Positions 26,690 through 40,049 of a stretch of DNA of 44,544 nt are shown here, piece by piece; positions within the stretch are counted from its first letter, which is position 1, and the number at the start of each line of letters is the position of its first letter. Below the pieces are notes generated by a model that did not search any database, was not told where the DNA came from, and saw only the letters and a list, made by a program, of their open reading frames with translations. Position numbers and translations under genes: made by a program. Origin of the DNA: Crocosphaera sp. (GTDB taxonomy: Bacteria > Cyanobacteriota > Cyanobacteriia > Cyanobacteriales > Microcystaceae); NCBI GenBank assembly GCA_030066295.1, contig JASJBX010000054.1:1-44544 (forward strand), given 5' to 3'.

Positions 26690-27364
26690 TTAGTTAAAAA
26701 TCAAATTAGATTTAACTTGGGTATCACAATTAACCGAAGTAATAATAATATGGCGATCGCTGTCAAAACTCAGCCATCCTTGACGCTGAAACTCTCCTAA
26801 TAAGCGAGTCACCGTTACCCGAGTAGTGCCGATCGCCCCGGCTAAATTCTGATGAGTTAAACGCACTTTAATTCTGATTCCGACTTCGGTGGTTTCTCCT
26901 AATTCTTGTTGGAGTAAATAAAGTAACTGTTGTAGACGATCTTCAACCCGTTTCAACCCAGCAATAGCTAATAATGCCTCCGTTTGACGCATTCGACGAG
27001 TTAATTGTTGAAAAGCCATTTGACTCAAGTCAGTGGAGTTGTTCACCTCTTCTAAAGAATGCCACTTTAAATAAAGATCCGATAACCCTTTCACTTGATA
27101 AGAGTCTATATAGGTTAAACAGGAACCAAAAAAAGTCCCTGGTTGGGCCCAACCTAATAAAATTTCCTCTCCTTGGGGAGATAGTTGACTTAATTGAGCA
27201 ATTCCACGATAAACTTGCCAAATCCCTTCCGTGATTAGAGGAATTGTTTCGCTTCGTTCATAAAAGTGTAGTCGCCCTTCCTCCGTATCTTCAAGGGATA
27301 GAGGGTGGTTCGGATTATGGGCTAGTAGCATCTTAATTTTGGTTTTCCCACTGTTAAACGACAA
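26690..27364 (-). CDS. Crp/Fnr-family transcription regulator
   Basis: 224 residues: an N-terminal cyclic-nucleotide-type beta-barrel (GIWQVYRGIAQLSQLSPQGEEILLGWAQPG), a long dimer helix, and a C-terminal winged HTH with LTHQNLAGAIGTTRVTVTRLL as recognition region. The cAMP-contact residues of Crp are not obvious, so the effector is unknown. It does not look like NtcA. It is convergent with the giant kinase gene and 18 bases from its stop. Its start may instead be the internal ATG giving MLLAHNPNHPLSL. Confidence 0.88.
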   Translation of the reverse strand: MSFNSGKTKIKMLLAHNPNHPLSLEDTEEGRLHFYERSETIPLITEGIWQVYRGIAQLSQLSPQGEEILLGWAQPGTFFGSCLTYIDSYQVKGLSDLYLKWHSLEEVNNSTDLSQMAFQQLTRRMRQTEALLAIAGLKRVEDRLQQLLYLLQQELGETTEVGIRIKVRLTHQNLAGAIGTTRVTVTRLLGEFQRQGWLSFDSDRHIIITSVNCDTQVKSNLIFN

Positions 27365-27540
27365 TACTTTACGAAACAGTCTAAAAGATCAAGGTAAACA
27401 TTGGGTAATCATCAGATTAAAAGATTTCAGGTGAGCAAGCCAACTTTACAAAAATCAATTTTCTGCTACAGTGGCTTACAACCCTTTAATTTTCTTAACG
27501 AAGTGAAAAAAGTTTACTCCTACACTGAAATCCTTAACCC

Positions 27541-37580: not shown

Positions 37581-38936
37581 ATGTCTAAATCAATTATTCA
37601 TCTCCAAAGCGTAGAAACTCAACAAATTTTAAACATATCGCCTCCCCAAACAGGATTATCCTTACAAGGAACGGTAAAAATACCCGGAGATAAATCCATT
37701 TCTCATCGCGCTTTAATGTTAGGGGCGATCGCCGAAGGAGAAACGGTGATCGAAGGGTTATTATTAGGGGAAGATCCCCGTAGTACCGCCGAATGTTTTC
37801 GCGCGATGGGGGCGAAAATTTCCCCCTTAAACAGTCAGAAAGTCACTGTACAAGGAATTGGGTTAGGACAGCTACAAGAACCCCTAGACATTCTAAATGC
37901 GGGGAATTCTGGGACTACTATGCGTCTGATGTTAGGATTATTAGCGTCTCATCCCGATCGCCTTTTCTGTGTTACTGGGGATAGTTCCTTGCGATCGCGT
38001 CCCATGTCTCGGGTGATCAAACCATTACAGGAAATGGGGGCCCAAATATGGGGACGCAATAACAACAGTTTAGCCCCCTTAGCGGTCAAAGGCCAGTCCC
38101 TTAAACCCATTCACTACCATTCCCCCATTGCTTCGGCCCAGGTAAAATCCTGTATCTTATTAGCAGGGTTAATGACAGAAGGAAAAACCACCGTCACCGA
38201 ACCTGCTTTATCCCGTGATCACAGTGAACGAATGTTACAAGCTTTCGGCGCAACTTTGGAAATTGATTCTAAAACTAATAGTGTTACCATAAACGGCCAT
38301 CCCAAACTAACCGGTCAAACCGTAATTGTTCCAGGCGATATTAGTTCAGCCGGCTTTTGGTTAGTAGCTGCTTCTATTATTAAAGGGTCAGAATTATTAA
38401 TCGAAAATGTTGGCATTAATCCCACCCGAACCGGTATTTTAGAAGCCTTAGAAATGATGGGTGCAGATATTACTTTGGAAAATAAACGACTGGTAACTGG
38501 GGAACCGGTGGCTGATTTACGGGTTAAATCTTGTCAGTTGAAAGGCTGTACCATTGCAGGAGATATTATTCCTCGTCTCATCGATGAAGTCCCTATTTTA
38601 GCGGTAGCTGCTCTTTTTGCAGACGGAAAAACCATTATTAAAGATGCAGCAGAATTAAGGGTTAAAGAAAGCGATCGCTTGGCGGTGATGGCTTCAGAAT
38701 TAACCAAAATGGGAGCAAAGATCACGGAGTTACCCGATGGTTTAGAAATCACAGGAGGGACTCCTTTAGTTGCTGCTGAAGTTGATAGTTATACCGATCA
38801 TCGCATTGCCATGAGTTTAGCGATCGCGGCCTTAACCGCTCAAGGAAAAACCATTATTAACCGCGCAGAAGCTGCAGCTATTTCTTATCCTGAATTTGTT
38901 AATACTTTAAAACAAGTTTGTGGCGATCAAAATTGA
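37581..38936 (+). CDS. aroA: 5-enolpyruvylshikimate-3-phosphate synthase
   Basis: Adds enolpyruvate to shikimate-3-phosphate in aromatic amino-acid synthesis. 451 residues with [40 protein letters not shown], the RPMSR segment typical of class II (bacterial, less glyphosate-sensitive) enzymes, [13 protein letters not shown] and [20 protein letters not shown]. It ends only 2 bases before the first copy of the tandem repeat. Confidence 0.97.
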
Positions 38937-38937
38937 T

Positions 38938-39080
38938 AAAAAAAGGGGTTATTTACTGTTAATACAATAAATAACCCTTTACGGTTGTATGCACCCGCTT
39001 TTTGAATCCTGTATCTATTATGTTCCCTTTCTCTGGTAGCCTCAATAGTATGGATCACGAGGATAAGGTGATTCTTATCA
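38938..39080 (-). ncRNA. Candidate small-RNA gene, copy 1 of the tandem array
   Basis: Its terminator has a perfect 10-bp stem (38946-38955 with 38968-38977) followed on the minus strand by C and seven T, ending 2 bases after the aroA stop. The hairpin could also serve aroA on the plus strand, but the T-run there is only TTT. Confidence 0.6.
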
Positions 39081-39092
39081 ACCCAAAAAATG

Positions 39093-39240
39093 AAAAAAAA
39101 AGGGGCTATTTACTGTCAAAAACAATAAATAACCGCTTGCTGTTATATGCACCCGCTTTTTGAATCCTGTATCTATTATGTTCCCTTTCTCTGGTAGCCT
39201 CAATAGTATGGATCACGAGGATAAGGTGATTCTTATCAAC
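39093..39240 (-). ncRNA. Candidate small-RNA gene, copy 2 of the tandem array
   Basis: Same layout as copy 3, with terminator arms 39104-39112 and 39126-39134 and a run of nine T on the minus strand (39093-39101). The core is essentially identical to copy 1. Confidence 0.6.
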
Positions 39241-39252
39241 CCAAAAAATAAG

Positions 39253-39399
39253 AAAAAAAAGGGGCTATTTACTGTCAAAAACAATAAATAACCACTTGCT
39301 GTTGTATGCACCCGCTTTTTGAATCCTGTATCTATTATGTTCCCTTTTTCTGGTAGCTTCAAGAGTATGGATCACGAGGATAAGGTGATTCTTATCAAC
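39253..39399 (-). ncRNA. Candidate small-RNA gene, copy 3 of the tandem array
   Basis: Read on the minus strand, the unit begins near a GATAAG/CTTATC stem (39391-39396 is one arm) and ends in GGTTATTTA ... TAAATAGCC (39263-39293), followed by a run of eight T. The T:G position is a G-U wobble only in minus-strand RNA; on the plus strand it is a C-A mismatch. This is what a selected minus-strand terminator looks like. No promoter was firmly identified upstream. Confidence 0.6.
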
Positions 39400-39536
39400 G
39401 TTGTGGGTAACATTCGTTGTAAAATAAGCAGCGAAGGAACGGTTATGTAATCAAGCCGTAATGTTATTCAGCTTGTGAACTCATAATCGTACCATATTCC
39501 TCAATCACAGTAATTAATAAGCATTCGGAGAAAATT

Positions 39537-40049
39537 GTGGACTTATCACTCATTCCTGCTCAACCTAAACCTGGTTTAATCAATGTTTTAATTGAAATTC
39601 CCGCAGGGAGCAAGAATAAATACGAATATGACAAGGATATGAACGCTTTTGCTCTCGATCGCGTTTTGTTTGCCTCGGTACAATATCCTTATGACTATGG
39701 GTTTGTTCCTAATACCTTAGCGGATGATGGTGATCCTTTAGATGGAATGGTGATCATGGATCAACCCACTTTCCCTGGTTGTGTCATTACAGCCCGTCCC
39801 ATTGGTATGTTAGAAATGATCGATGGTGGCGATCGCGACGAAAAAGTATTATGCGTCCCTGAAGAAGATCCCCGCTATGCCAACGTAACATCCTTGAAGG
39901 ATATTGCACCTCACCGTTTAGAGGAAATTGCTGAGTTTTTCCGCACCTATAAAAATCTGGAGAAAAAAGTAACAGAAATTTTAGGGTGGAAAGATGTTGA
40001 TGCTGTAATGCCTTTAGTTGAAGAATGTGTCAAGGCAGGTAGTAAATAA
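39537..40049 (+). CDS. ppa: Inorganic pyrophosphatase, family I
   Basis: Hydrolyses pyrophosphate and so drives biosynthetic reactions. 170 residues with the signature [11 protein letters not shown] (metal-binding Asp), [15 protein letters not shown] and [11 protein letters not shown] at the active site, and [14 protein letters not shown] near the end. The start is GTG 39537, with CGGAG 7 bases upstream. About 137 bases separate it from the tandem repeats. Confidence 0.97.

Follow-up and report, generated by a model that had tools for sequence, protein, structure and literature searches.

CyaR and Spot 42 are small RNAs (sRNAs) of enterobacteria that are controlled by the cyclic-AMP receptor protein (CRP). 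The hosts of the array described here are unicellular cyanobacteria, and Crocosphaera, the source of the DNA analysed, includes major marine nitrogen fixers. In Synechocystis, the SyCRP1 regulon has been assigned the consensus TGTGAN6TCACA, with a -10 box about 22 bp downstream of the site (available text of PMC2633013). The system nearest in kind, as far as it is described in the available part of PMC9045159, is NsiR1 of Nostoc sp. PCC 7120, an RNA of about 60 nt with 12 tandem copies, individual promoters and partly divergent siblings. No description of a CRP-controlled cyanobacterial sRNA was found in the open-licence literature searched.

The aroA–ppa intergenic region of a 44,544-nt stretch of Crocosphaera sp. 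DNA, called the window throughout, carries an array of direct repeats. It probably consists of tandem CRP-controlled, base-pairing sRNA genes, each comprising a promoter, an RNA of about 75 nt and an intrinsic terminator. CRP would most likely activate all copies together, the tandem copies would raise the RNA dose, and the 5' segment of the RNA would pair with mRNAs.

Anatomy of the array

Repeat comparison places three direct repeats of 159 nt, at spacings of 158 and 159 nt, at 38924-39399 of the window, with 85% and 94% identity to the middle copy for the other two. TRF reports 38929-39399 with a period of 159 and 3.0 copies, its score of 821 being the highest of 10 rows in the window. Together with the domain matches of the flanking genes (Table 1), this bears out the three repeats of about 158 bp that a first-pass annotation had placed between aroA and ppa; the NCBIfam pyrophosphatase matches of ppa fall below their cut-offs. 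The array overlaps neither gene, and one base lies between the T-run of copy 3 and the aroA stop codon. The units had been called antisense, a description that needs amending: the predicted RNAs are divergent from ppa, convergent with aroA and overlap no coding sequence. The longest open reading frame within the array measures 53 aa (minimum listed, 40 aa). On the antisense (plus) strand, each of the three window copies holds an uninterrupted frame of some 27 codons that starts with TTG. Of 34 readable rows, 22 keep this frame open, but among the 11 that come from outside the genus it is closed in 9; frames begun at the GTG of the 5' segment meet stops in many rows. The repeat unit is therefore read as non-coding, in agreement with the earlier remark that it carries no open frame.

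A terminator scan of 38800-39560 finds exactly three sites, all on the minus strand, where 0.4 would be expected from shuffles, and the T-runs of the three copies are 8, 9 and 7 long. Across 35 aligned copies the terminator helix holds 73 G-U cells versus 5 A-C cells (the equivalent of G-U on the opposite strand), a count whose p-value is no independent evidence because the copies are related. Eight of the 13 pairs have changed on both sides, 95.1% of the cells are paired, and the covariation score of 0.384 compares with at most 0.188 for slid structures and is reached by none of 500 shuffles. The first-pass annotation had noted minus-strand-only terminators with seven to nine T as well as the strand asymmetry of the G-U wobbles; both observations hold, the latter extending to relatives, and its proposal of tandem small-RNA genes on the minus strand gains support from the terminators and the comparison. 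Its RNA length of about 140-150 nt, on the other hand, gives way to a predicted 73-76 nt. Comparison locates CRP-type sites, together with a -35-like element and a -10 box, within the unit, and the transcript is therefore predicted at about 75 nt, with the first ~70 nt of the unit promoter-like. The core that had been called strongly conserved is indeed conserved, but about half of it would be promoter and not RNA.

In the RNA, a near-invariant AGGATTCAAAAAGCGG[AG]TGCAT is followed by a variable short linker and then by the intrinsic terminator. Its predicted start in relatives is AGGATTCAAAAAGCGGGTGCAT, and its 3' end is the covarying terminator. The 5' segment is near-invariant across the 35 aligned copies, which were gathered using a pattern for this very segment, and the stem and linker are variable; the segment, AGGAUUCAAAAAGCGGGUGCAU, is mostly unpaired. 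Two models were used in searches, a covariance model from the 35 copies (R1) and a promoter-plus-segment model (R2); the three window copies are training members of R1, so their R1 matches hold by construction. Anatomy, strand and terminator covariation are what the comparison of copies shows directly, and transcription and its start are predictions from them. The array is best read as three complete small-RNA genes in tandem, about 75 nt each, and its status as an sRNA family appears well supported.

Table 1. Annotated and predicted features of the aroA–ppa region of the window
Feature	Position	Strand	Description
aroA	37581..38936	+	convergent with array; TIGR01356, 429.9 bits, above cut-off; PF00275
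sRNA copy 3	38938..39010	-	predicted transcript 73 nt; R1 match 38937-39010, E 3.4e-14; stem 38946-38977
sRNA copy 2	39093..39168	-	predicted transcript 76 nt; R1 match 39094-39168, E 2.4e-15; stem 39104-39134
sRNA copy 1 (ppa-proximal)	39253..39327	-	predicted transcript 75 nt; R1 match 39253-39327, E 1.7e-15; stem 39263-39293 and T-run
Conserved 5' segment, copies 1, 2, 3	39304..39327, 39145-39168, 38987-39010	-	AGGATTCAAAAAGCGGGTGCATAC in copy 1; putative seed
-10 box, copies 1, 2, 3	39334..39339, 39175-39180, 39017-39022	-	CATAAT in copy 1
-35-like element, copies 1, 2, 3	39357-39362, 39198-39203, 39040-39045	-	TTGAAG (copy 1), TTGAGG (copies 2, 3); 17-bp spacers
Second CRP-type half-site, copies 1, 2, 3	39361..39376, 39202-39217, 39044-39059	-	CGTGATC... 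in copy 1; centre -41.5
CRP-type site copy 3	39067..39082	-	centre -64.5; 7 of 10 consensus letters
CRP-type site copy 2	39225..39240	-	centre -64.5; 7 of 10 consensus letters
CRP-type site copy 1	39384..39399	-	GTTGATAAGAATCACC; centre -64.5; 7 of 10 consensus letters
ppa	39537..40049	+	divergent from array; PF00719, 198.5 bits

Promoter layout and CRP

Promoter positions assume that +1 is the A of AGGATTC, which puts the -10 box at -12 to -7 and the -35-like element at -35 to -30. A promoter scan of 38800-39560 returns exactly three promoters, all on the minus strand and with 17-bp spacers; such a sigma-70-like scan proves nothing alone, because 2.8 are expected by chance, and its value comes from comparison. 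In 25 aligned promoters, chosen for alignment with rows lacking a clean site omitted, TGAY...TCAC, GTGA and an AT-rich -10 box stand at near-constant distances, and GTGA is invariant. A score of at least 7/10 against TGTGAN6TCACA at -63.5 to -65.5 is found in 36 of 45 rows versus 1.8% of mononucleotide shuffles, and one of at least 8/10 in 30 of 45 versus 0.25%; the rows are related, and the G067 row duplicates SU2. The family thus has the CRP-type site at a fixed upstream distance that is expected of a CRP-controlled sRNA. In the window copies it scores no more than 7/10, which 20-27% of upstream regions attain at some position after dinucleotide shuffling.

Among genomes first met through R1, outside its training, the site scores 10/10 in G013 and 9/10 in both G072 and G027, and the reduced genomes G028, G033 and G069 have none. 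These three account for part of the nine rows that miss the site at -63.5 to -65.5; the other six comprise three copies of Crocosphaera that lie away from ppa, a single copy from the six-copy array and two diverged members from genus g4, whose sites (10/10 and 9/10) stand at -70.5 and -66.5 under the same assumed start. Copies away from ppa in G003 and G005 are without the -64.5 site.

Does a CRP accompany these sites? The genome of the window (G000) encodes a CRP-like protein (C112, truncated by the contig end) with a recognition helix RETVTR and a cyclic-nucleotide domain, and this helix type occurs in only one of the seven own-genome proteins inspected among nine HTH_Crp_2 matches. The window itself encodes a CRP/NtcA-type regulator at 26693-27388 (minus strand), whose recognition helix TTRVTVTRLL is unlike the RETVTR type. 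Of the 50 family genomes, 42 have an orthologue of the CRP-like protein (at least 66% identity) and eight do not. All 21 genomes with both an R1 match and the orthologue have at least one copy scoring at least 7/10 at the position. Where the orthologue is absent, G015, G024 and G070 have no R1 match, G028, G033 and G069 retain the RNA but their site has decayed, and G003 (79% complete) keeps an RNA copy without a CRP-type site. Judged by size alone, G028, G033, G069 and G070 may be diatom endosymbionts, and G015 and G024 may be UCYN-A. The remaining genome, G016, keeps both the RNA and an 8/10 site; its best match to the orthologue is 35%, and the RETVTR-type helix is absent from all seven of its above-cut-off CRP-type proteins. 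G016 truly contradicts the CRP reading, barring an overlooked CRP gene. R1 finds nothing in 24 of the 50 family genomes, 21 of them with the orthologue (R2 finds diverged members in two of them), and CRP therefore does not imply the RNA. The co-loss of RNA or site with CRP appears partial, and the reduced RNA-bearing genomes all belong to one genus, so that the independent co-loss events are few. From the promoter layout and this partial co-loss we infer binding and activation by CRP-cAMP; control of the family by CRP seems fairly supported.

The sites might also serve the neighbouring gene. The repeats would then act mainly as DNA, as a CRP-site array regulating the divergent ppa with short transcripts as a by-product. 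Such a role would agree with ppa being the neighbour of the array in every genus genome except G003 (eight of nine), in G016, in G021 and in three reduced genomes with the RNA. Thirteen RNA-bearing family genomes, however, have no ppa in the roughly 3 kb of locus inspected, and all of these but G003 (12 of 13) keep a site of at least 7/10 at the same distance. A covarying terminator and a near-invariant 5' segment speak against it as well, and we judge regulation of ppa improbable as the main role of the repeats beside that of sRNA genes.

CRP-type promoters of the same layout precede a small gene starting MLKKVKA at L270 (G000:C72), L271 (G016:C10) and L280 (G002:C148), and a similar one is seen at L282 (G006:C17). 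The L270 product is AF2212-like (PF01954, 23.8 bits), and we take it to be a possible antitoxin. Outside the family, the weak R2 matches align mainly to promoter columns, and we attribute them to other CRP-type promoters and do not count them as members; within the family, 17 of many weak R2 matches were inspected.

Distribution and copy number

A DNA search with the repeat unit matches 20 of 59 genomes at E<=0.01, including all nine genus genomes searched. At E<=0.1, R1 matches nine of nine Crocosphaera genomes, with one to six copies each, and 26 of 50 genomes of the taxonomic family, the own genome and many training members included; it finds none in 12 genomes of genus g7 and four of g10. 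On larger scales, searched with stricter filters at which weak matches are lost, R1 matches 13 of 291 genomes of the order at E<=0.01, all of the same family, and 11 of 386 genomes of the phylum, namely ten of the same family and one weak outsider (G453, E 0.0018) that was taken as chance; no convincing member outside the family was found with R1 among these genomes. DNA matches in G014 and G040 and a second one in G010 cover linker or terminator only and were dropped, as was the R1 match G007:C169 (E 0.0055), without promoter and segment. The exact 24-nt pattern has no match in the genome contig collection, and a looser one gives 26 stretches, 10 of which are non-cyanobacterial, lack promoter and terminator by eye and were taken as chance.

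Variation in copy number elsewhere had been predicted by the first-pass annotation, and it is found among the genus genomes: there are four copies in C. watsonii WH 8501, two in Cyanothece sp. BG0011 and six in MO_202.B2. A tree of 22 units groups the copies mostly by genome, with starred support for C. watsonii, MO_202.B2 and BG0011 and weaker support for the window and SU3, and with the MO_188.B44 copies not gathered. Clustering by genome points to repeated amplification or homogenisation. The most divergent copy in C. watsonii and MO_202.B2 is the one farthest from ppa, and four of the six MO_202.B2 copies have altered letters in the 5' segment, changes that point to sibling RNAs or to decay.

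In C. watsonii WH 8501 (L068, L023) and MO_192.B18 (L024) the array-adjacent ppa matches its first 32 codons only. A reverse-transcriptase frame lies near the break in both genomes (PF13655 and PF00078 in L024), L068 contains a group II intron domain (RF00029, 51 bits), and ppa seems to be interrupted by a group II intron in both.

Further sRNA copies occur at three other places in G005, two with altered promoters (C145 and C347) and one with a changed 5' segment (C73). These copies and the tandem arrangement itself are what a repeat of the mobile or filler type, devoid of any regulatory role, might leave behind. Such an origin is nonetheless very unlikely, given that the unit occupies a single place in its own genome of 4.4 Mb (91% complete), with a next-best match at E = 0.6 and thus no MITE-like dispersal, that single copies with a conserved promoter are found across genera, and that the terminator shows compensatory changes.

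Putative function and relation to known systems

What could the RNA do? From its terminator, its near-invariant and mostly unpaired 5' end and its regulated-looking promoter we infer that the short RNA most likely pairs with mRNAs. When up to three mismatches are allowed, matches to the complement of the 5' segment exceed a reversed control in five of six genomes, self-matches included, and number 10 versus 12 in the control in G008. Surroundings were inspected for 80 matches in G000, G006, G007, G008 and G021, with G020, five TGCGATCGC matches in G006 and G007 and one G008 match left out. Eleven groups of matches share their position between two or three genomes, and this recurrence is explicable without any sRNA because many of them overlap reading frames. 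The best lead, which we do not claim as a target, lies on the presumed start codon of a gene for an ABC transporter (PF00664) in G000, G006 and G007. Among 38 start regions of the window the best pairing, at -16.1 kcal/mol, is weaker than the -17.7 median best of 60 shuffled seeds, and pairing with the aroA and ppa start regions does not stand out. The six-genome complement search found no convincing conserved mRNA target.

A hint at the working parts comes from the two diverged members added by R2, AAGGATTCATTTCACGGGTGCATG in G022 and AAGGATTCAACGTTTTCGGGTGCAG in G029. In G029 the sRNA motif lies at the ends of contigs C154 and C339 (L266, L294). At one of these ends it forms tandem repeats of 35 and 49 bp downstream of a CRP-type promoter, the bipartite motif AGGRTTCA...CGGGTGCA occurring six times and reaching the contig end. 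At the other end CGGGTGCA occurs three times and is followed by a hexapeptide-transferase frame (PF00132); the two ends have 46 nt in common, and copy number and joining are putative. The diverged members suggest GGATTCA and CGGGTGCA as the working parts. The G029 array would also suit a decoy, whose 5' motif titrates an RNA-binding protein or another RNA, the copies serving dose and not the pairing with many mRNAs; the multiplication of whole genes in Crocosphaera and the want of a good mRNA target fit the same idea. We consider a decoy rather unlikely, for the G029 array is found where contigs of a single fragmented genome end, the second contig may hold a leader, as the coding frame follows with no terminator noticed between, and a long invariant unpaired 5' segment is also expected of a pairing sRNA. 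Just as tentative is a broader proposal, in which the working part of a CRP-controlled RNA family, confined to one cyanobacterial family, is the bipartite GGAUUCA...CGGGUGCA, multiplied in two ways, as tandem whole genes (up to six) in Crocosphaera and as repeats within a single transcript in a g4 genome; the RNA might be a dose-tuned decoy or a multi-target cAMP reporter, and the CRP-less reduced genomes would keep it uncoupled from CRP.

Is the pairing sRNA a known one? The first-pass annotation did not recognise the family, nor does Rfam 15, in a covariance search of whose 4227 families no match above the gathering score appears in the window; over the loci of seven relatives the same search finds only two tRNAs and a single group II intron, with no match covering the RNA. 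Seven matches over the array at E<=10 belong to unrelated families, fall far below gathering scores and were taken as chance. Nothing describing an RNA with this segment was found in the open-licence literature, outside which most subscription papers lie. There is a small chance that the family is an already described Synechocystis sRNA, such as Ncr0700/PmgR1, and that only the tandem amplification is new. One copy is carried by four of the five genomes of g13, the genus holding the Synechocystis salina sequence, and Ncr0700, compared here by description only, is an abundant sRNA from a related genus, with its highest level in the dark and with conservation from strain 6803 to strain 6714 (available text of PMC5386190). 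The inter-strain overlap reported there is 195 nt, however, versus about 85 nt here, and that text makes no mention of CRP control. Six written forms of the segment are unmatched in the open-licence literature, which says little, as the primary papers lie outside it; a link to Ncr0700 by genome position was dropped as too loose. We regard the RNAs as a new family of known sorts of sRNA, with a possible identity with a named Synechocystis sRNA, Ncr0700/PmgR1 foremost.

If true, an sRNA that is conserved, amplified and tied to cAMP would couple post-transcriptional control to energy or light state, and the variable copy number and the CRP-less genomes would offer ready-made comparisons for dose and control. 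With CyaR and Spot 42 the family shares a CRP-type site in the promoter of a small RNA; it differs from them in being a cyanobacterial RNA of about 75 nt that is tandem-amplified, the sequences having been compared through Rfam only. The 21 bp between the -41.5 site and the -10 box resemble the ~22 bp of SyCRP1 promoters, whereas the SyCRP1 targets described in the available text of PMC2633013 are protein-coding units, and the term 'ncRNA' is absent from its main text. Closest is the likeness to NsiR1, a cyanobacterial sRNA in tandem copies with individual promoters, features that the present array matches at the level of sequence. NsiR1 lies upstream of hetF and, according to the available part of PMC9045159, has DIF1 promoters for heterocysts, whereas the array of Crocosphaera is flanked by aroA and ppa and its promoters carry CRP-type sites.
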